Positions 19,371-33,245 of a DNA stretch of 33,328 bases are shown here, piece after piece. The notes below the pieces were generated by a model. That model saw nothing but the letters and a program-made list of their open reading frames with translations, did no database searches and was not told the origin of the DNA. Each line of letters starts with the position of its first letter. The first letter of the stretch is position 1. A program made the position numbers and the translations under genes. Origin of the DNA: Clostridia bacterium (GTDB lineage: Bacteria > Bacillota > Clostridia > Peptostreptococcales > Acidaminobacteraceae); the NCBI GenBank assembly GCA_014859095.1, contig JACUUV010000032.1, positions 1-33,328 of the forward strand, in the 5' to 3' direction.

Positions 19371-20244
19371 GAAAAGTGGATTGGGAAAAGGCCTTGGTGC
19401 ACTTATACCTACAGAGTCTATGCAAAATATTGAAAAGAACATCAATGAGCATGGAGAACTGATACAGGAAATAGATGTCAATCTCATTATTCCAAATAAA
19501 GATCAACCCCGTAAACATTTTGATCAGGAGAGAATTGCTTCACTTGGGGATTCCATATCGGAACATGGATTGCTGCAACCGATAGTTCTGAAGAGAAATG
19601 GCAGTTTTTATGAAATCATTGCAGGTGAAAGAAGATGGCGTGCCACAAAACACCTTGGTGTAAAGAAAATCGCTTCCATCATCAAAGATGTAGATGATTT
19701 TACGATAGCGCAGCTCGCTTTGATTGAAAATGTCCAGCGTGAGGATTTAAATCCAATAGAAGAAGCAATGGCTTATCATAAATTGATTGATGAATATAAG
19801 ATTACACAAGAAAAACTCAGCAAAATTGTTGGGAAAAGCAGATCTTATCTTACAAATACCATGAGATTGATGAAACTAGAAACTTTTATACAAGATGGTA
19901 TTGTAGAAGGGACGATCTCCAATGGTCATGGACGAGCTTTGCTAGCACTTGAAGAACCCAAGAAACGCAAGATGGCTTATGACAAGATTGTTTCTGAAGC
20001 CTTTAGTGTTCGTATGACTGAAGATTTGGTCAAAAATTTTGAAAAGTATTTCAAAGAGCGTACATCAGTAATTGCCAAGCCACATAATAAACTTAGGGAA
20101 ATTGTGAATTTGGAAGATGAACTTTCGATGTCTTTTGGCACCAAAGTTACTATTAAAGAAACACAAGGTAGAGGAAAAATCTTAATTGATTTTTATAATA
20201 TTGACGATTTAAATAGAATTATTGATTTGATCAATAAGCAATAA
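19360..20244 (+). CDS. parB: chromosome partitioning protein ParB/Spo0J
   Basis: A CTP-dependent DNA clamp that loads at parS, 294 residues. The N-terminus has KSGLGKGLGALIP, the short segment that stimulates ParA. The CTPase/arginine box is GERRWRATKHLG and the second conserved box is ENVQREDLNPIEEAMAYHKL. A helix-turn-helix (TQEKLSKIVGKSRSYLTNTMRL) reads parS. The last part is the dimerisation domain. Two perfect parS sites start one base after its stop codon. Confidence 0.96.
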   Translation: MSIKKSGLGKGLGALIPTESMQNIEKNINEHGELIQEIDVNLIIPNKDQPRKHFDQERIASLGDSISEHGLLQPIVLKRNGSFYEIIAGERRWRATKHLGVKKIASIIKDVDDFTIAQLALIENVQREDLNPIEEAMAYHKLIDEYKITQEKLSKIVGKSRSYLTNTMRLMKLETFIQDGIVEGTISNGHGRALLALEEPKKRKMAYDKIVSEAFSVRMTEDLVKNFEKYFKERTSVIAKPHNKLREIVNLEDELSMSFGTKVTIKETQGRGKILIDFYNIDDLNRIIDLINKQ

Positions 20245-20260
20245 TGTTTCACGTGAAACA
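20245..20260. promoter_or_regulatory. parS: parS site 1
   Basis: A perfect copy of the chromosomal parS palindrome TGTTTCACGTGAAACA directly after the parB stop. Its right half also forms the left arm of a terminator hairpin. Confidence 0.97.
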
Positions 20261-20288
20261 TAGTTCGGATTTTGAGCTATGTTTTTTT
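20253..20288 (+). terminator. parB terminator overlapping parS
   Basis: GAAACATAG (from parS 1) can pair with CTATGTTT, at least 8 base pairs, followed by a run of T that leads straight into parS 2. The terminator is thus built from and bounded by ParB binding sites. Confidence 0.65.
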
Positions 20289-20303
20289 GTTTCACGTGAA
20301 ACA
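20288..20303. promoter_or_regulatory. parS: parS site 2
   Basis: A second perfect TGTTTCACGTGAAACA, 43 bases from the first, about four helical turns, so both face the same side of the DNA. Confidence 0.97.
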
Positions 20304-21242: not shown

Positions 21243-21353
21243 ATACCATATAATGGAATTTACAAGACGTCTAAATTATGAAAAAATTAAAATCTAATAC
21301 TAAGATTCGTCAAAACACAAAAAATCAATACAGAGAGAATATGAGGCTTTTTG

Positions 21354-22778
21354 ATGAGTACTATGAATTTAAGGGACGCGAAAAATCATTTTATTGAATC
21401 TGGTAGGTTGAATCGAAATGTGGTTAGAGATGACATTTCGATTTCTTGGTATAAATGCAGATTGAGTCAATTGTCTATTGATCATGATGGAGCCACTTGT
21501 CAGAACAGCAAAAAAACAAAATACAACAACAAGTTTGATCCGAGTTTCATTGATTACTTGGATTCTATAATTCCAGTTTCATATGATTTTGTCATCGCGG
21601 ATGAAAATCATAATGTCATTTATCGAAGAAATGATAATCATACTATAGAATCGATACAATGTATTGAAGAACATTGTATAGGTACAAATGCTGGTGCGCT
21701 TGTACTAAAAACAGGTGTAGAACAAATTGTGATGAAGCATGAACATTATCTCAACACATGGTCTGAACTTTATTCATATGGAATTCCAATACGTGAAGAA
21801 GATAATCTCGTTGGAGCAATAATGTTGATAGCCAGTTTTCAGCCAACGGAAATCGAGATCAAGATTATTAAGGAAAAAATGAAACAGTTTGAAAAGCGTA
21901 GAACCAAGACGGTAGAAACTGAAATTAAAGAACTGCACTTTGAAGATTACTTTGTATATCCTGAAGGGTATAAGGAGTCATTCATTCAGAGTTTAAATAG
22001 ACTTTCAGTAATCAATACACCGGTAATGATTATGGGTGAAAGAGGGGCAGGCAAAACGACACTCTCATGGTATTTATGTCTGACCAATGGATTATCACCA
22101 TATTTCATTAATGGGAAGAACATTCCGAGAATAATGGAATCAGAGATTATAAAAAAAGCACTGTATCAATATGATACAATTGTAATAGAGAATTTTGAAG
22201 TTCTCACACCTGAGAACAAACAGTTGTTAACTGCTTACACTGAAGAAAAAATTATCAGTAAAACAAGTGAAAAATATAGTAATTACAGTGCACACAACAT
22301 TATTTTGACAACTGATTACACTACTGAAGAACAATGTGATAAAATAGATGTGAAGTTGATGAGTAGATTTTCAGTAAATGCTGTTAAACTTAAGAATCTG
22401 AATGCATTCAAATATGAGTTCAAGTCTTTATTGATCAAAATACTGGATCGATACGAACTACGTATTACTGATGATGCCGCTGAAGTCGTTGCTAAAAATA
22501 GTGAGATCAAAACTTTTCGAGACTTGTCAGAGTATATTGAAAAGTTGAAATATAAGCATATAGAGAATCGAAGCGTTGACGTTGCGGATCTGATTTATAG
22601 AAAAGAAACCATTATGCATTCATTGGAAGAGCAAGAAAAACAGTATGTCAGTTATGTATATGAACGAATGGATAGCAATATTTCAGCCACTGCGGAGGTC
22701 CTTAAAATAGGTAGAAGCACATTGTACCGAAAGCTTGAAAAGTATCAAATCGATACAACTAAGCAAAATTCAAAATGA
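21354..22778 (+). CDS. GAF / AAA+ / Fis-type transcription regulator lacking the sigma-54 loop
   Basis: A 474-residue regulator resembling AcoR-type enhancer-binding proteins. The N-terminus has the family pattern ISISWYKCRLS, then a GAF-like sensor (about 68-165, with CIEEHCIGTNAGALVLKTG). The AAA+ part has Walker A GERGAGKT (228-235). However, the segment from PYFINGKNIP to TIVIENFEVL is short, and the GAFTGA loop that contacts sigma-54 is absent. The Walker B region is weak (IVIENFE). A Fis-type helix-turn-helix closes the protein (SATAEVLKIGRSTLYRKLEKY). It probably acts on ordinary promoters or as a repressor. ATG at 21354 with GAGG upstream. Confidence 0.75.
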   Translation: MSTMNLRDAKNHFIESGRLNRNVVRDDISISWYKCRLSQLSIDHDGATCQNSKKTKYNNKFDPSFIDYLDSIIPVSYDFVIADENHNVIYRRNDNHTIESIQCIEEHCIGTNAGALVLKTGVEQIVMKHEHYLNTWSELYSYGIPIREEDNLVGAIMLIASFQPTEIEIKIIKEKMKQFEKRRTKTVETEIKELHFEDYFVYPEGYKESFIQSLNRLSVINTPVMIMGERGAGKTTLSWYLCLTNGLSPYFINGKNIPRIMESEIIKKALYQYDTIVIENFEVLTPENKQLLTAYTEEKIISKTSEKYSNYSAHNIILTTDYTTEEQCDKIDVKLMSRFSVNAVKLKNLNAFKYEFKSLLIKILDRYELRITDDAAEVVAKNSEIKTFRDLSEYIEKLKYKHIENRSVDVADLIYRKETIMHSLEEQEKQYVSYVYERMDSNISATAEVLKIGRSTLYRKLEKYQIDTTKQNSK

Positions 22779-22839: not shown

Positions 22840-23111
22840 ATATGTTTTCTAATTTCATTATAATACAAAATATATTACACAGTCTTTAATCACTTTGATT
22901 AAAACGATATGTGTAAATGTGTTTACAACAAACAATTGTTTCACATTTTACTGTAAACCCATACAGTTTTACCGTGAAAGGGTTCTTATATAACGTATAG
23001 ATGTTATATATTTTCAAATATATCGTTTATAAAATAACATTTGAATAGTAAAGATTTTTTATGTAGAATAGAAAAGAGAAGAAGAAAGCTTAAATCAAGC
23101 GAATTAGGACA
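22840..23111. other. AT-rich intergenic stretch with several inverted repeats
   Basis: No gene is visible. Inverted repeats are TTTAATC/GATTAAA (22885-22903), TGTAAA/TTTACA (22912-22927), TTTACTGTAAA (22947-22957) facing ACAGTTTTAC (22963-22972), TATATAAC/GTTATATA (22987-23010) and ATATATTT/AAATATAT (23006-23023). The 8-mer TTTACTGT at 22947-22954 returns in the palindrome at 23112-23133. The stretch is probably a regulatory region for the operon that follows. Confidence 0.55.
23041..23069 (+). promoter_or_regulatory. promoter of the HTH/coiled-coil/OmpA operon
   Basis: TTGAAT (23041-23046) and TAGAAT (23064-23069) are 17 bases apart, each one or two mismatches from the sigma-A consensus. 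The leader to the first start codon is about 77 bases and contains the 22-bp palindrome. Confidence 0.6.
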
Positions 23112-23133
23112 TTAACAGTAAATTTACTGTTAA
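23112..23133. repeat. perfect 22-bp palindrome, likely operator
   Basis: The left half TTAACAGTAAA (23112-23122) is exactly complementary to the right half (23123-23133). It lies between the candidate promoter and the GGGGGTGA ribosome binding site of the next gene. It could be an operator for the helix-turn-helix proteins of the operon, or an RNA hairpin near the ribosome binding site. Confidence 0.75.
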
Positions 23134-23152
23134 CTGTTGGGGGTGATTGATA

Positions 23153-23599
23153 TTGTATAAAGTCAGTGAAGTTGCTGAATTGATGGGTGTAGAAAAAACC
23201 GAGATATTTGAAAAGATGATCACGCACAAGACATTGATCGATCCCAACATCCATAAAAAAGATGGAGTAACCTATTTTGATGAACGGGGATTGGAGATTC
23301 TGAGGACGTTGTTTTCTAAAGACATATCGAATTCACTTGGAGAATTCAATAGTTTGAAATCGGAACAGAACAATGATCCCACAAAGAAAAACAGACCTTT
23401 ATCCAAATTTGAAAGAGACAAAAAAATCTTAATCGATAAAATGGACATTTTAAAGAATGAACTGATGAATTTGGATATGGAACTGAAGCTCAAAGACGAA
23501 ATGATTATCAAGTATCAGGTCAAAGTGAATGAAGATATAGAAGCTTTGAATCGATTTCAGTATGCATTGCTTAAAAAAATAGAAAGAATTGTGGAGTGA
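23153..23599 (+). CDS. MerR-like HTH and coiled-coil protein, paralogue 1
   Basis: A 148-residue protein of no assigned function. Residues 1-55 look like a MerR-type winged helix-turn-helix (YKVSEVAELMGVEKTEIFEKM, then IHKKDGVTYFDERGLEIL). Residues about 85-148 are charged and heptad-like, predicted coiled coil, with LKLKDEMIIKYQ. The next gene encodes a clear paralogue with the same layout. The plan recalls RacA (MerR-like domain plus coiled coil, anchors origins) and RocS/DUF536 proteins, but I cannot prove kinship. The start is taken as TTG at 23153, which aligns with the paralogue (MYKVSEVA against MYRVIEVA) and sits 7 bases after GGGGGTGA. TTG at 23147 is an alternative. Confidence 0.7.
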   Translation: MYKVSEVAELMGVEKTEIFEKMITHKTLIDPNIHKKDGVTYFDERGLEILRTLFSKDISNSLGEFNSLKSEQNNDPTKKNRPLSKFERDKKILIDKMDILKNELMNLDMELKLKDEMIIKYQVKVNEDIEALNRFQYALLKKIERIVE

Positions 23600-23603
23600 G
23601 CGC

Positions 23604-23993
23604 ATGTATCGTGTCATAGAAGTAGCTAAGATGTTGGGTGTGAGCAAAGTCACCATTTATAAAAAAGTGAATAAGAACAAAAAACTTTTAAAAAACCACA
23701 TTCATACCAGAAGCAACATAACTTACATAGACGATGTGGGTGTGCAAATCATAAAAGAGACCATAGAAGTTTCTTCAAGCGGTTTACAAAACGACAACAA
23801 TGATATTTCTGAAATCAAAAATGAAGTTTTGGAGGATCTCACAAAAGCTATTGAAATCCTCAATCATCAGATCCACGTCAAAAAAGAGCAGATCAATATT
23901 AAAGATGAAATCATTGACAATTATAAGACATTGATCAAAAGCAATAGAGGTAAACTGCAATATCTTGAAAACAAATTAAATGAAGTCAATTAG
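23604..23993 (+). CDS. MerR-like HTH and coiled-coil protein, paralogue 2
   Basis: A 129-residue protein with the same plan as its upstream neighbour. The helix-turn-helix is MYRVIEVAKMLGVSKVTIYKKV. The wing-like HTRSNITYIDDVGVQII follows, then a linker and a predicted coiled coil (about 75-129) with INIKDEIIDNYKTLI. The pairs VxEVAxxxGVxK and KDExIxxY are shared by both proteins, so they arose by duplication and may form heterodimers. The ATG at 23604 follows GGAG by 7 bases, and only 4 bases separate it from gene 1. Its stop overlaps the AGGAGGG of gene 3. The function is unknown; DNA binding is inferred from the fold. Confidence 0.72.
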   Translation: MYRVIEVAKMLGVSKVTIYKKVNKNKKLLKNHIHTRSNITYIDDVGVQIIKETIEVSSSGLQNDNNDISEIKNEVLEDLTKAIEILNHQIHVKKEQINIKDEIIDNYKTLIKSNRGKLQYLENKLNEVN

Positions 23994-24005
23994 GAGGGTT
24001 AAGCT

Positions 24006-24698
24006 GTGGTACCTAAAAAATCAATTTTCGAGAAAATGGGTTTAATAGAACCTAAAATTACTGAAAAGAAAGAAGAAATTATTGAAATCGAGACTCAAAC
24101 TGAAAATATTCCTGATCCAGAACATGTTCCTGATTTAAGAAATTTGGATTTTGAGGAACAAAAACCTATATTTGAAGAGAGTTTCAAATCTAAAGAAGAA
24201 GAAGAAGAAGAAGAACCAGTCAGTACACCTAATGAAATCAGCGACAAACTGGACCTGATCATTGGAGCTTACGAGAAAAACAAAATGCTGACTATCGATG
24301 AGATTTATAGAAATGCTCACTTGGATTCTGAAGTCAAAAAGACTATTTTTATGACAGATGTTTATTTAAAGGCGATTCCTGAGAATTTGCCTCTGGATAT
24401 CAAAAGGGAAACAGTACTTAATATCATGAAGGTTTCAAATATCGGACTTGATGATTTACTGAATGATGCCTACAAAAGAATTGACTCACTGAACACTGTA
24501 CTAGAAGAGACTGTTGCAACTACCCAAGAGGTATTTGATAGGAATGACACTACAATTCGCGAACTTGAAAAGCGAATTGAAGACCTGAAGGATGTCAACA
24601 AAAACCGAAAGAAGTTCCAGGAAGACCAAAACACTATGATTGAGTATGAAATTCAAAAGATAATAAACTTAGTCGAATTCGTCAAACCAAAGAAGTAG
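24006..24698 (+). CDS. acidic coiled-coil protein of unknown function
   Basis: A 230-residue soluble protein I do not recognise. Residues 1-80 are acidic and probably disordered, with a run of seven glutamates (about 63-69) coded by a GAA repeat. Residues about 85-155 look helical and globular (DLIIGAYEKNKMLTIDEIYRN, LPLDIKRETVLNIMKVSN). Residues about 156-220 are predicted coiled coil (NTVLEETVATTQEVFDRN, RELEKRIEDLKDVNKNRK). The start is GTG at 24006, fixed by AGGAGGG at 23992-23998. It lies between the two DNA-binding proteins and the membrane protein, 4 bases before the latter, so an adaptor role is possible but unproven. Confidence 0.7.
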   Translation: MVPKKSIFEKMGLIEPKITEKKEEIIEIETQTENIPDPEHVPDLRNLDFEEQKPIFEESFKSKEEEEEEEPVSTPNEISDKLDLIIGAYEKNKMLTIDEIYRNAHLDSEVKKTIFMTDVYLKAIPENLPLDIKRETVLNIMKVSNIGLDDLLNDAYKRIDSLNTVLEETVATTQEVFDRNDTTIRELEKRIEDLKDVNKNRKKFQEDQNTMIEYEIQKIINLVEFVKPKK

Positions 24699-24702
24699 CG
24701 AT

Positions 24703-25329
24703 ATGACTCAGTACAAATTAACCACGAGAGGGAAAGTTGTGCTTGGAATTTTTGTCTTCTTGATTGTGGTATTCATGATTAAAGGTGGAATTTATATCAG
24801 TGAACACAACAAAGCCACTGAAGCGATTGTGCCTGAAGAGATAAATCCCGATGTCGAAACCGCTCCGGTAGAATCACCAGTGACGGAAATGCCTGACCCT
24901 GTTGTGACTCCTGAAGATCTGGAAACTGAAAAAATCTATTCTATTGAAATGCTAGAAGACATGAAGTTGATGTTGTTCGTTTTCTATTTTGAAAAAGGCC
25001 AATCAGATTTGAATGAAGATTCTCTTGAGCAATTTGATATTCTTATGGAGGTTCTTAGCGCTTATCCTGAGGAGCCAATAGTGATAGAAGGTCATGTCAA
25101 TGGTTATCCGAATTTCGCCCAAACGGAGGAGAATTTAGTGCTCAGTGGAAAGCGAAGTCAGGCCGTTGCGGAATATTTAATAGACAGGGGTATTGAAAAC
25201 TCTAGAATAACGGTGTATAATTTTGGTTCAGAGGTTCCTTATATCAGACAAAGTGTGTTACAACATCAAAACGATCGTGTAACCGTATATTTTAAGAATC
25301 ACTTCACAAATGGTGATCTTAACAAGTAG
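24703..25329 (+). CDS. membrane-anchored OmpA/MotB-like protein
   Basis: A 208-residue protein with a single N-terminal membrane helix (about 12-32) after a short basic cytoplasmic start. A Pro/Glu-rich extracellular linker (36-77) follows, then an OmpA/MotB-type domain (about 90-197). The domain shows YFEKGQSDLNEDSL, IVIEGHVNG (128-134), LSGKRSQAVAEYLIDRGI and ITVYNFGS. The arginine of the LSxxR motif (Arg151) is kept, but the usual GHTD aspartate is replaced by Asn133, so peptidoglycan binding may be altered. There is no MotA-like partner nearby and no stator-type plug. The Shine-Dalgarno is weak, suggesting coupling to gene 3. Confidence 0.75.
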   Translation: MTQYKLTTRGKVVLGIFVFLIVVFMIKGGIYISEHNKATEAIVPEEINPDVETAPVESPVTEMPDPVVTPEDLETEKIYSIEMLEDMKLMLFVFYFEKGQSDLNEDSLEQFDILMEVLSAYPEEPIVIEGHVNGYPNFAQTEENLVLSGKRSQAVAEYLIDRGIENSRITVYNFGSEVPYIRQSVLQHQNDRVTVYFKNHFTNGDLNK

Positions 25330-26419: not shown

Positions 26420-28216
26420 TTGGAAAAAAAACAGAATATCATGCTTCTCAGCTTGATTTACGGTCTTGTAGTCCTTTCGGCCATTGTTGCCCAATTGAGG
26501 CTATTCAATCTTTCTTATAATGCAAGGGGACTATATGTGTCATCAGGAATTATTCTTCTTGGCGCATTTGGAATGACATATGCGATAAAAAGGGAGATTC
26601 TACATTTCAATAAATATGTCGGCATTAAAGACATGCTGTTCAAGGATAAAGATCGACAACAAGTCCAGTTGAAATATGAAAATCTGAGAAACGATCAAGA
26701 AGAAAAAATGCTCAGTATCACAGTTCAAAAAGAAATACTGTTGAACTTGGAAGTCCAACTGAAAAACATACAGAAGGTGTCAACAACACTCGATTCGGAT
26801 GTCAAAGCATTGAATGAAAAAAAAGAATACGCCATCCACTTTTTTGATGCACTTGCGAACCTTTTACCTCAAAGAATTTGGATCACAGACGCTCATGGTC
26901 AGATCCTGTTCATAAACAGTGCATTTAGGAGCAACTTAAGTAAAGGGAAAAAAATAAACAATCTAATGGATTTTCTTGAAATATCAGAAGACCAAATGGA
27001 AATATTCAATAAGAGGAATTTCGGCAGTATATTGTATCGATTCAAAGAGGACAGTGGCAATTTGGCTCTTGAAGGGAAGTCTATCAGGATATTCGAGAAC
27101 GATACGGTCAAATACATTTTATATACCTCCAAATCCACAGATTTTGAAAAGAAGATGAATCAGAATTACCTAAGGAAAAGTAGAGATCTCCATGTGATCA
27201 ATGAGATCGGAAAGATAATCATCGGTCGAAGTACAATCAGCGGGACGCTCCAAGAAGCGCTCGACAAGATTGCATTTCTAAACAATTTGAATTCAACAAC
27301 CATTAGATTGTTGAATGATAAGAACGAATTAGAGATAAAAGCGTTAAGTGGTTACAGTAAGGAATTCATACTTAAAAATAAAGTTGAGGCAGAATTGTCT
27401 CATATGGGCTATGCTTACAATGAGAATAGAATGATTTTTATCAATAAGCCAGAAGATCTTTTGTTCAACGATCCGGACGTTGAGAATGTCGTGAGAAAAG
27501 GCGGCAAAATCGCCTATATTCCACTAGCCAATTACAAGAAGACTTTTGGAATCATGTCCATAGTCAGTGACAATGAGTTCAATACTGAAAATCTCACCTT
27601 GTTTGAAGCCATTTCCATCAATCTTACTATAGCACTTGAAAAAATATTGCTGTATGATCAGCTTAAATCCAATTATTTCAAAACTGTAGAGGCTTTTGTG
27701 ACCGCCTCGGAAATCAATTCGGAATGGTTCAGCGGGCACTCGAGGAGAGTTGCCGAGATTTGTAGGGCAATTGCAGAAAAACTATATCTGAATGAGCATG
27801 AAGTCGATGAAATTTATATGGCTGGACTTTTGCACGACGTCGGAAAATTGTCATCAGATTACGACAATGAGGATTTAAAGGATATTCATTATCACAGTAG
27901 AATCGGACGGCGGATGATTGAAAAAGTAGGTTTGAGCAAAGATGTTCTGGAAGGTATTGAATACCATCATATGGACTATGATCTTAAAAATAATAGTGAT
28001 CCTGAACTTACCGAACAACCTTATTATGCTCAAATCATTAGGATTGCCAACGACTTGGACTGGTTGCTCAATACGGAATTCAAAATTGAATCCATGGAAT
28101 CCGCTACGGAACAGCTGAATGAAAAGAGCAATACCATTTACTCCAGTCAGTTTCTTAAGATTCTTGGCGCGATATTAAATGAACCCAATAATATAATACA
28201 AAGTGTTTACCATTAA
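26420..28216 (+). CDS. membrane PAS-GAF protein with a degenerate HD-GYP domain
   Basis: A 598-residue putative sensor. Two membrane helices (about 8-28 and 40-56) lead into a coiled coil (about 65-140). A PAS domain (about 140-240, RIWITDAHGQILFINSAF) and a GAF-like domain (about 255-410) follow, then an HD domain (about 420-560). The HD motif LLHDVGK and the second HH are present. However, the sequence after HH reads MDYDLKNNSDP, with no GYP signature, and the later AD pair is ND. It may therefore be inactive or act on another substrate. The start is TTG at 26420 after GGGGGGTGA. A close relative with a fuller HD-GYP follows. Confidence 0.8.
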   Translation: MEKKQNIMLLSLIYGLVVLSAIVAQLRLFNLSYNARGLYVSSGIILLGAFGMTYAIKREILHFNKYVGIKDMLFKDKDRQQVQLKYENLRNDQEEKMLSITVQKEILLNLEVQLKNIQKVSTTLDSDVKALNEKKEYAIHFFDALANLLPQRIWITDAHGQILFINSAFRSNLSKGKKINNLMDFLEISEDQMEIFNKRNFGSILYRFKEDSGNLALEGKSIRIFENDTVKYILYTSKSTDFEKKMNQNYLRKSRDLHVINEIGKIIIGRSTISGTLQEALDKIAFLNNLNSTTIRLLNDKNELEIKALSGYSKEFILKNKVEAELSHMGYAYNENRMIFINKPEDLLFNDPDVENVVRKGGKIAYIPLANYKKTFGIMSIVSDNEFNTENLTLFEAISINLTIALEKILLYDQLKSNYFKTVEAFVTASEINSEWFSGHSRRVAEICRAIAEKLYLNEHEVDEIYMAGLLHDVGKLSSDYDNEDLKDIHYHSRIGRRMIEKVGLSKDVLEGIEYHHMDYDLKNNSDPELTEQPYYAQIIRIANDLDWLLNTEFKIESMESATEQLNEKSNTIYSSQFLKILGAILNEPNNIIQSVYH

Positions 28217-28227
28217 ATGAGGCTGTA

Positions 28228-30132
28228 ATGATGAAAATGCAACTGAGTTTCAAGTTTAATATGACAAGCATGCTTTTTATGTTGCTCCCACTTACTGCCG
28301 TGTTGTTCATTCAAGAAAGTGGAGCGTATAGACCAGATTTTATAGCCGTTTATGTACTTATTCAGGGCTTTATTTTCTTTGTCTGGAACAAACTCATGTT
28401 GATAAGGATCAAGAAAAGCAATCGAATCACAAAGATGCTGGACATGAACTATGATGAACAGATTGAGCACATAAAGGACATGGAACCTCTGAACAACGGA
28501 GAGGAGCGATTGGTCAAATTGATTCGCTCCATGCAATTCGCTGTGAATGTCGAGTCTCAGATGGAAAAAGACAGCGCTTTGTTGGAAGAGGAAATCAATA
28601 GACTCAAAGCAAAAACCACTGAGCTTAACATTGAAAAACAGCTTAATATGACCGCTTATGATTTGCAGGATACCATAAATCGCAATCTTTCCGGGTTCTC
28701 GGATCAACTATTGGTCAGATTGGATTCACATGGATCAGTCTTGGATGTCAACGAACTGTTTGTATCCAGATTGGGCTATTCCAAAAAAGAATGCATCGGG
28801 AAATCATTCAGTGACTTCTATCAGGGAGGAAACGAGGGAAACGGTCCCAAAATCACCTCTCTTTTTCAAGCCAGTGAAGAACCCTTGTTTTTAAGAATCT
28901 GGTATAAGAACCACGGTGGCGGCGCATTTGAATACGTAAGCTTCAAGACCATTGAACTGTCAGATGGGTCCTACCTTTGCGTCGGAAAATCCATTGGTGA
29001 TGAAATCACACTTCAAAGCCGTATTATAAGAAAGAAAAAAGAACTGGACTACATCAATCAAATCAATTCTGCGTTGATCAGCAACAGAAGTGTCGACGAA
29101 TTGCTCGAAAACATTGTAAAAAGACTTGAGAATTTATTTAATCTCACACTCGGATGCATTTATACGCTCAATGATCAAAAAGCATGGGAACTCGTCACAT
29201 ACACCTCCAAAAATTTGTCTCGTGAAGAGTTTTTGGAATTTGAGATCGAACAGAATTTTGATGAGAATTGGCTCAATACTCTCGAAGTCAAAATTGAGAA
29301 ACAGGATTCTGAGCTTGGAGATTTTGTCAAATACATGGCTTTCGCGCCTCTTGAGGTTGAAGGCAAAGTCATCGCCATCATGTGCATAGGATTAGTTCAG
29401 GATATCAAAGTCAATGATTACAACATTCTTAGAATGTTCAACAATCAAGCATCCATAGTGGTTCAACGCGCCATCATCTATGAAAAGCTTAGAAGACAGT
29501 ATTTCAACACCATCGAGGCACTAGTCAGTGTTATCGAGGCAAAGGACAAATACACAGAAGGTCATTCTAGAAGAGTATCCAGATTTGCAGTTGAAATAGC
29601 AAAAAAAATGGGCTATAGTAATGAAGAGATTGAGAATGTTGAAATTTCAGGTCTTTTGCATGATGTTGGTAAAATTGGAATAGACCAGGATATTTTGATC
29701 AAACGAGGCAAGCTCTCAGACGAAGAATATGAAATCATGAAACTTCATCCTGAAAAAGGGATACAGATTCTGGATACGATCCATTTGCGCGACGACATCC
29801 GTGAAGGTATCCTTTACCATCATGCACGCTTTGACCTTCGGGGTTACCCGACACATACTCTGGAAGAGCTTCCACTGTTCGCTGCAATCATTGGAGCCGC
29901 TGATGCTTTCGATGCCATAACATCGGCCAGATCGTACTCACACGCACGCAGTATTGACGACGCTTTGAAAGAATTGATTCAATATAAAGGGACGCAATTT
30001 TATCCCGAGATCATTGAGATTATTGAAAGGCTTGTCAAGGAAAATAGAGAGATCATTCAAACCATCATTGACGATCAGCAAGGAGAAAGAAATGTCATAT
30101 CAGGCACTTTACAGACAGTGGCGGCCACTTGA
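28228..30132 (+). CDS. membrane PAS-GAF-HD-GYP protein, probable c-di-GMP phosphodiesterase
   Basis: A 634-residue protein with the same plan as its neighbour: two membrane helices (about 12-55), a coiled coil, PAS (about 165-270, DSHGSVLDVNELFVSRLGYS), GAF (about 280-425) and HD-GYP (about 435-600). The HD-GYP part shows GHSRRVSRFAVEIAKKMG, LLHDVGKIGI, LHPEKGIQIL, HHARFDLRGYP and GAADAFDAITSAR. HH is followed by Ala instead of the usual Glu. HD-GYP domains hydrolyse c-di-GMP to pGpG or GMP. The start is ATG at 28228 or 28231. Its last 41 bases overlap dnaX. Confidence 0.86.
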   Translation: MMKMQLSFKFNMTSMLFMLLPLTAVLFIQESGAYRPDFIAVYVLIQGFIFFVWNKLMLIRIKKSNRITKMLDMNYDEQIEHIKDMEPLNNGEERLVKLIRSMQFAVNVESQMEKDSALLEEEINRLKAKTTELNIEKQLNMTAYDLQDTINRNLSGFSDQLLVRLDSHGSVLDVNELFVSRLGYSKKECIGKSFSDFYQGGNEGNGPKITSLFQASEEPLFLRIWYKNHGGGAFEYVSFKTIELSDGSYLCVGKSIGDEITLQSRIIRKKKELDYINQINSALISNRSVDELLENIVKRLENLFNLTLGCIYTLNDQKAWELVTYTSKNLSREEFLEFEIEQNFDENWLNTLEVKIEKQDSELGDFVKYMAFAPLEVEGKVIAIMCIGLVQDIKVNDYNILRMFNNQASIVVQRAIIYEKLRRQYFNTIEALVSVIEAKDKYTEGHSRRVSRFAVEIAKKMGYSNEEIENVEISGLLHDVGKIGIDQDILIKRGKLSDEEYEIMKLHPEKGIQILDTIHLRDDIREGILYHHARFDLRGYPTHTLEELPLFAAIIGAADAFDAITSARSYSHARSIDDALKELIQYKGTQFYPEIIEIIERLVKENREIIQTIIDDQQGERNVISGTLQTVAAT

Positions 30133-33121: not shown

Positions 33122-33213
33122 AACACGAAAAGGCAAACCCAGTGAAAACTGGCGACGCAAAGTCTGGAGTCTAAAGTATGGGAGTCATACCATACCACGA
33201 CCGTCCGACTGCC
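33122..33213 (+). ncRNA. cyclic-di-GMP-I (GEMM) riboswitch
   Basis: The conserved core elements are present in order: AGGCAAACC (33131-33139), a CCAGT-GAAA-ACTGG hairpin with GNRA loop, GACGCAAAG (33154-33162), a GGAGTCTAAAG block, and the closing GACCGTCCGACTGCC (33199-33213) whose TGCC pairs with GGCA at 33132-33135. This matches the class I c-di-GMP aptamer. TGCCAAA (33210-33216) can instead pair with TTTGGCA (33226-33232) just before the ribosome binding site of the next gene. No T-run follows, so control is probably at translation rather than termination. Confidence 0.85.
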
Positions 33214-33245
33214 AAAGGCAATTTATTTGGCAAAGGAGAAAGCAT

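Follow-up and report, generated by a model that had tools for sequence, protein, structure and literature searches.

A four-gene operon beside the replication origin

A four-gene operon of Fusibacter-type bacteria, located beside the chromosome segregation genes, may tie DNA to the cell envelope. We found it in a 33,328-bp stretch of the genome of a Clostridia bacterium (assembly GCA_014859095.1, contig JACUUV010000032.1, positions 1 to 33,328), which is hereafter called the window. The operon comprises open reading frames (ORFs) A to D, all on the plus strand and separated by gaps of 4, 12, and 4 bp (Table 1), which confirms the close packing described in an initial annotation of this DNA. 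The parts listed in that annotation were also supported, namely two paralogous helix-turn-helix (HTH) coiled-coil proteins (A and B), an acidic coiled-coil protein (C), and a single-span protein of the OmpA type (D). We read the operon as a distributed, also self-regulated link from DNA to the membrane, to which we assign a rough probability of 40%. The anatomy suits such a link because DNA binders of a segregation class are combined with a candidate adaptor that pairs with genes on either side and with a membrane protein that has a conserved cytoplasmic tail.

The window covers the oriC region, with gyrA, gyrB, recF, dnaN, and dnaA on the minus strand on the left and jag, mnmG, rsmG, parA, and parB on the plus strand on the other side of oriC. 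A pair of perfect parS sites lies 3' of parB, 2.8 kb ahead of a tandem dyad upstream of A. The initial annotation had placed the operon about 3 kb after parA-parB-parS; this distance stood, but a lipid kinase gene (yegS) and a gene for a Fis-type regulator intervene between parB and A.

Distribution and gene order

Gene C was detected in 28 of 393 genomes of the order, comprising 23 of the 41 members of the window's family (f1), three genomes of family f8, one of f10, and one of f11. The C-bearing loci (24 loci) include those of Fusibacter tunisiensis, F. paucivorans, F. ferrireducens, F. bizertensis, and Acidaminobacter sp. JC074. When 198 genomes of the order (it is uncertain whether G268 of f10 was among them) were searched with the A and B profiles, 21 had complete A and B, all of them f1 genomes with C. 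The gene order A-B-C recurred in all 21, which exceeds chance. These 21 leave out G028, where B is cut at a contig end and A is lost, and G017, where A, B, and D are missing and C is flanked by yegS and tadA.

Gene D follows C in 19 of the 23 f1 genomes; G007 and G010 have C with A and B but without D. The genes usually run in the order yegS, regulator, A, B, C, D, and tadA, flanked, where the stretch extends far enough, by mnmG-rsmG-parA-parB before and dnaX-ebfC-recR after. The set is thus kept beside parAB in related genomes, a check that the initial annotation had proposed. Exceptions to the order include L038 and L045, where no regulator was detected, and L043, which has 8 kb between D and tadA. 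D-like matches in the D-less genomes G010, G028, and G017 looked MotB-type and were rejected (G028 and G017 by eye, G010 by equal frame length and match); G007 had no D-like match.

Beyond the order, a phylum draw of 398 genomes yielded a single further C match, which contained stop codons (E 8e-4) and was taken as spurious. With B, the 397 other genomes of that draw gave a single match at E 1e-5 or better. This is a 135-aa protein (L192:1222-1629, minus strand) that combines an HTH and a coiled coil with a basic MinD-like tail at its C-terminus; its 8.3-kb contig, from another family, also has an ORF matching AAA_25 and DnaB_C. B had no match among 72,556 plasmids, and a search of A, B, and C against PHROGs gave no informative name. 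In G119 (f11), a single A/B-like HTH protein of 324 aa lies between two phage-type integrase genes (L186:6099-7073); it matches positions 1-118 of the 152 of the B model (E 1.1e-11) and shows a weak MTES_1575 nuclease-like match.

A tandem dyad upstream of gene A

A consensus tandem of two 11-bp dyads (TTWACWGTWAATTWACWGTWAA) was found upstream of A in 16 of the 21 loci. It begins at -33 to -42 relative to A in 13 loci and at -76 to -80 in three, and its 22 bases hold while the flanks vary. Genome-wide searches that allowed up to one mismatch recovered the dyad from 16 of the 21 genomes in which A and B are both complete. The remaining 25 genomes searched had none; they comprise 18 f1 genomes in which C was not found, five genomes of f8, f10, and f11, G017, and G028. 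The first set of 16 genomes had it in 15, all except G016, and of 30 further genomes only G001, which has A and B, carried it. The dyad is single in 15 of the 16 site-bearing genomes, including the window's own; G029 has a second copy with one mismatch. The tandem dyad and its tie to genomes with A and B are new here.

A possible operon promoter precedes the dyad in the window (Table 1). Alone it is weak, as the scan returned 12 such sites against 10.3 expected. A similar promoter pair at the same distance from the dyad was found in nine of 13 loci scanned, with the dyad beginning 41-43 bp past the predicted -10 box; the pair was not the top-ranked match in every locus, and the geometry differs in L038, L042, L048, and L051.

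Across the site-bearing rows, 104 protein alignment columns were invariant (10 in A, 22 in B, 68 in C, and 4 in D, the C part compared without G001 and the D part with only three site-less rows). Out of these, only F19 of A was missing from every site-less row. F19 falls in the recognition helix, as judged by alignment with helix 15-24 of B. Since this is the only column that tracks the presence of the dyad, A probably reads the tandem dyad. The motif SKVT.YKK in the helix of B is kept in all 21 rows, including those without the dyad; B therefore seems to have another target, and we infer that it binds DNA other than the dyad.

An isolated 11-bp dyad lies further upstream in the window (Table 1). 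It would be expected 0.01 times per shuffled 420-bp stretch and is absent from the loci of the two nearest genomes (L033 and L035). Over the 21 loci, extra 11-mers upstream of A numbered nine at one mismatch or fewer (4.2 expected) and two as exact copies (0.15 expected), a difference that we do not press. An array of sites like that of RacA was also considered and was not supported: the 11-mers were below or near the reversed-pattern control in six of seven genomes. The counts were 11 against 38 in the window's own genome and 51 against 31 in G016, which has no tandem site.

Table 1 Features of the operon and its upstream region in the window.
Feature	Position	Strand	Basis and remarks
parS site 1	20245..20260	+	perfect TGTTTCACGTGAAACA; 0 in 100 shuffles
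parS site 2	20288..20303	+	perfect TGTTTCACGTGAAACA match
Isolated 11-bp dyad TTTACTGTAAA	22947..22957	+	exact TTWACWGTWAA match, -206 from A
Possible operon promoter TTGAAT-17-TAGAAT	23041..23069	+	consensus scan
Tandem 11-bp dyad TTAACAGTAAATTTACTGTTAA, presumed site of protein A	23112..23133	+	conserved in 16/21 loci
Gene A, predicted winged HTH (wHTH) and coiled-coil protein, 148 aa	23153..23599	+	ORF, coordinates resting on a chosen TTG start; paralogue of B
Gene B, predicted Par/RacA-type wHTH and coiled-coil protein, 129 aa	23604..23993	+	ORF; model; PDB matches
Gene C, acidic protein of 230 aa (GTG start) in which a disordered linker joins a conserved N-terminal motif to a C-terminal helical/coiled-coil domain	24006..24698	+	alignment of 25; model; charge
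Gene D, cytoplasmic tail, one transmembrane segment, and OmpA-like domain, 208 aa	24703..25329	+	ORF; PF00691

Proteins A and B resemble segregation-class DNA binders

A and B are paralogous over their whole length (profile-profile probability 99.4%, E 1.4e-21). B was modelled from 21 rows (mean pLDDT 89) as a winged HTH (wHTH) with a single long helix (residues 65-128) after it. In a Foldseek search of 350,542 PDB chains with this wHTH, the plasmid pSK1 Par protein on its centromere DNA (8csh) ranked first (E 0.01, probability 1.00) and the RacA-DNA complex (5i44) second (E 0.06). VIA-align, which re-aligns Foldseek's own matches, superposed B on 8csh with Z 9.8 (1.1 A over 53 residues) and on 5i44 with Z 9.6 (1.2 A over 56 residues). 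Other than RacA, the entry ranked next was HiNmlR, a MerR regulator (Z 8.7, 8.5 A over 105 residues), followed by entries at 8.0 or lower, and MerR alignments confined to the wHTH reached Z 7.8. Judged on its model, B is a wHTH protein of the Par/RacA class, and RacA, which the initial annotation had offered as a loose precedent, proved apt with pSK1 Par ranked ahead of it.

A may be placed in the same wHTH class through its paralogy with B only. Pfam gave nothing credible for A, either for the window's protein or for the 21 rows, and the window's B touched HTH_17 below the cut-off. The A profile aligned along pSK1 Par (8csh_D) at E 0.087, ranked below ten chains that were mostly coiled coils, designed proteins, and keratins. 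DUF536 was not matched by the window's A or B up to E 1 or by the 21 A rows up to E 0.01, and A and B were therefore not filed as RocS or Par. A basic C-terminal tail (e.g., KSGFFNKLMK) is present on five of the 21 A proteins (L038, L043, L044, L048, and L051) and lacking from the other 16; by eye, the window's A and B have no MinD-like amphipathic tail.

Protein C has the distribution expected of a hub

Protein C is acidic (net charge -19, pI 4.7), and its model (mean pLDDT 74) has a long C-terminal helix. In an alignment of 25 rows, without the two C fragments of G001, both ends of the protein are conserved, as an N-terminal motif (about KKSIFEKLGLIE) and a helical C-terminal domain, and the acidic stretch between them varies. 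No credible Pfam family was found for these 25 rows. A PDB profile search reached E 0.15 at best, none of 39 Foldseek matches was at E 0.001 or better, and the best VIA-align match had Z 5.9 (Ndc80:Nuf2 and other long-helix proteins). These failed searches are no evidence of a new fold.

C accompanies A and B without D in G007 and G010, and D without adjacent A and B in the three f8 genomes, the pattern expected of a hub. In f11 (L084:293-2373), C lies on a 3.6-kb contig with no A or B beside it and is followed by a protein with VanW, PG_binding_4, and G5 domains, which would be another membrane-type, wall-related partner for C.

Protein D carries a specific cytoplasmic tail

Protein D has an N-terminal hydrophobic stretch that forms a predicted single transmembrane segment and a clear OmpA domain (PF00691, E 3.7e-13, residues 95-184), with PDB profile matches down to E 3.7e-23. 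The tail carries a motif of the type Y[RKN][LIV][TS]x[RK]GK in 18 of 22 rows (not in L046, L047, L050, and L053). Among 678 non-redundant ORFs of the neighbourhoods, this expression matched only D (18 of 18). The tail motif is kept in f8 too, which suggests that the D tail may bind C. The N-terminus of the VanW/PG_binding_4/G5 protein in L084 reads REYRIT and resembles the tail motif of D.

The aspartate and arginine named as the diaminopimelate-binding residues of the OmpA/Pal domain (PMC5974059) have different fates in D. The arginine is kept in 21 of the 22 rows (Arg151 in the window), whereas the window has Asn133 at the position where Pal and OmpA have aspartate.

A possible link between DNA and the cell envelope

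In the mechanism that we favour, A and B would be DNA-binding wHTH/coiled-coil proteins of the pSK1 Par, RacA, and RocS class. A would sit on the single leader dyad, ~11 kb from dnaA and 2.8 kb from parS, where it would both limit transcription and mark a spot on the origin side. B, with its nearly invariant recognition helix, would bind other DNA, and the two proteins may associate through their coiled coils. C would serve as the adaptor joining A and B to D, presumably by contacting B on one side and D on the other. The cytoplasmic tail of D would fasten the assembly to the membrane, on whose outer side the OmpA-like domain would lie, and the position of the origin may be affected as a result. 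A site beside its own gene can serve as both centromere and operator in plasmid Par-type systems. A narrower version, in which the four proteins tie one defined spot of the origin region to the envelope and the same 22-bp site sets operon expression, appears doubtful to us; in it, a Par/RacA-like protein would read the 22-bp site and its paralogue would bind other DNA, with a coiled-coil protein as the adaptor to the transmembrane OmpA-like protein.

Several observations weigh against a link of this kind. The dyad occurs once per genome (twice in G029) and in the operon's own leader. Five genomes with A and B lack it; the best match in G016, one of these, is a two-mismatch copy at 1.31 Mb of 3.1 Mb, remote from the operon. 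At three mismatches, the counts against the reversed-pattern control in five genomes were 2/6, 1/6, 5/8, 4/13, and 8/7 (G040), which is no clear excess. The concordance between F19 and the dyad rests on two to three independent changes in a tree of eight neighbouring genes (sign test p 0.5), in which two rows have long branches. As to the fold of B, Foldseek gave no match at E 0.001 or better, the B sequence profile did not retrieve Par or RacA, and RacA (Z 9.6) and HiNmlR (Z 8.7, within 1) count as a tie under the aligner's rule. The five A tails resemble the MinD/RocS membrane-targeting tail by eye, with hydrophobic moments not above those of shuffled sequences. In D, the diaminopimelate-contacting position is Asn in 14 rows, Asp in three, and another residue in five; because the aspartate is mostly lost, binding of the wall by the usual contact is doubtful, and so is the wall-facing anchor of the initial annotation (Asp replaced in 19 of 22 rows).

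The distribution of the genes also counts against linkage. In the three f8 genomes, C and then D lie among unrelated genes with no A or B adjacent, and none of A to D was found in the par regions of these genomes. C also occurs without adjacent A and B in the f10 and f11 genomes, and the 6.8-kb contig of the former shows neither a D gene nor an HTH gene. No C match was found in 18 of the 41 family members, some of whose assemblies are incomplete, or in G119, where the A/B homologue is without the partner genes. The location beside parS is itself weak evidence since synteny is high for all genes here. The initial annotation had named scattered homologues as a point against anchoring. They do exist (C in five genomes, with D in three of these, and one A/B-like protein). 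A, B, and C stay together in all 21 genomes with complete A and B.

DNA-to-envelope linkage and simple autoregulation are about equally likely. The latter, in which the operon would be an ordinary self-regulated envelope operon, is a strong contender, albeit short of even odds. A, perhaps with B, would be a repressor on the leader operator that answers to the state of C and D, and these two would form an envelope or division complex that positions no DNA. The solitary copy of the dyad in nearly all site-bearing genomes and its place in the leader fit this account, as do the operator-like spacing from the -10 box in nine loci, the occurrence of C-D without adjacent A and B in f8, and the F19 pattern, which points to A reading this single site. 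The spacing is different in the other four loci scanned, however, and two paralogues retained in every genome with A and B are more than an autorepressor needs. In addition, the helix motif of B persists without the dyad, as if directed at another target, and no transcription regulator matches its wHTH better than Par and RacA do. Binding at its own promoter alone, which the initial annotation had set against origin anchoring, may thus hold for A, whose sole recognisable site is in the operon leader, but apparently not for B. The proposal of DNA-envelope anchoring survives in part: the parts suit a link, but the only DNA site found lies in the operon's own leader and C-D occur without adjacent A and B.

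It is improbable that A and B are a domesticated Par-like plasmid partition module beside an unrelated C-D pair, with the dyad as a relic centromere and operator. The first rank of pSK1 Par among solved structures for B would agree with such an origin, and so would the small contig of the phylum draw, where the only B-like protein, with its basic tail, accompanies an AAA_25/DnaB-like helicase ORF. However, complete A and B were never found without C, the dyad and the B helix are strongly conserved, and the plasmid search with B was empty.

Comparison with known systems

Like A and B, pSK1 Par has an N-terminal MerR-type wHTH followed by a coiled coil. It binds a site upstream of its own gene, and the presumed binding site here lies likewise upstream of A. 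Unlike pSK1 Par, A and B lack a DUF536 match, are two paralogues rather than one protein, are chromosomal, and are linked to C and D. RacA shares the wHTH and coiled coil; it has many ram sites, densest near the origin, and DivIVA as its anchor (PMC6593407), whereas here there is one dyad, assigned to A, and a possible membrane partner of the operon's own.

The wHTH of RocS was likened by its authors to those of Par and RacA, all with a coiled coil after it (PMC11500499). A and B share this architecture, and the tails of five A homologues resemble the C-terminal, MinD-like membrane-targeting tail of RocS (PMC11500499 and PMC13042908). In contrast, the window's A has no such tail and neither A nor B matches DUF536, and RocS is a single protein with membrane binding of its own (PMC11500499). 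The outer domain of D is a clear sequence member of the Pal/OmpA/MotB C-terminal domains; it differs in its anchoring by an N-terminal transmembrane segment and in the diaminopimelate aspartate, mostly replaced by asparagine.

The initial annotation knew of no described system with this gene set, and we found none in the literature searched, judged by title. No paper on Fusibacter together with chromosome segregation or ParB was found in that literature, in which subscription papers are poorly covered. To our knowledge, how the origin is held at the membrane is poorly known in Firmicutes without RacA or RocS. The operon offers a compact candidate set with a precise, usually single DNA site, which makes tethering and autoregulation separable by direct tests. 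The authors of the RocS study considered that the DUF536 and tail of RocS/Par-type proteins may act with an as yet unidentified partner (PMC11500499). In a different lineage, C and D would be candidates for this role.

Neighbouring genes and other features

Both parS sites fall within the 5' end of the yegS ORF (window 20244-20303), and the kinase match begins only at residue 36-39; the actual start of yegS is therefore probably later than the ORF start. The regulator (window 21351-22778) has an HTH of the Fis type at its C-terminus and an ATPase domain weakly like that of sigma-54 activators, in which the GAFTGA motif is absent, and it is kept between yegS and A in most loci. By eye, TGTATCA...TGATACA-like motifs were seen 3' of the regulator in several genomes. 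A second ParB-like gene, possibly Noc, lies upstream of parA in six loci with A and B (L038, L039, L043, L044, L048, and L051) and was not seen in the window. In the window, D is followed by a tRNA-Arg gene. The right end of the window contains a c-di-GMP-I riboswitch (33122-33216, 71 bits). Upstream of it are genes for two HD-domain proteins (26420-28216 and 28228-30132), with dnaX, ebfC, and recR in between.

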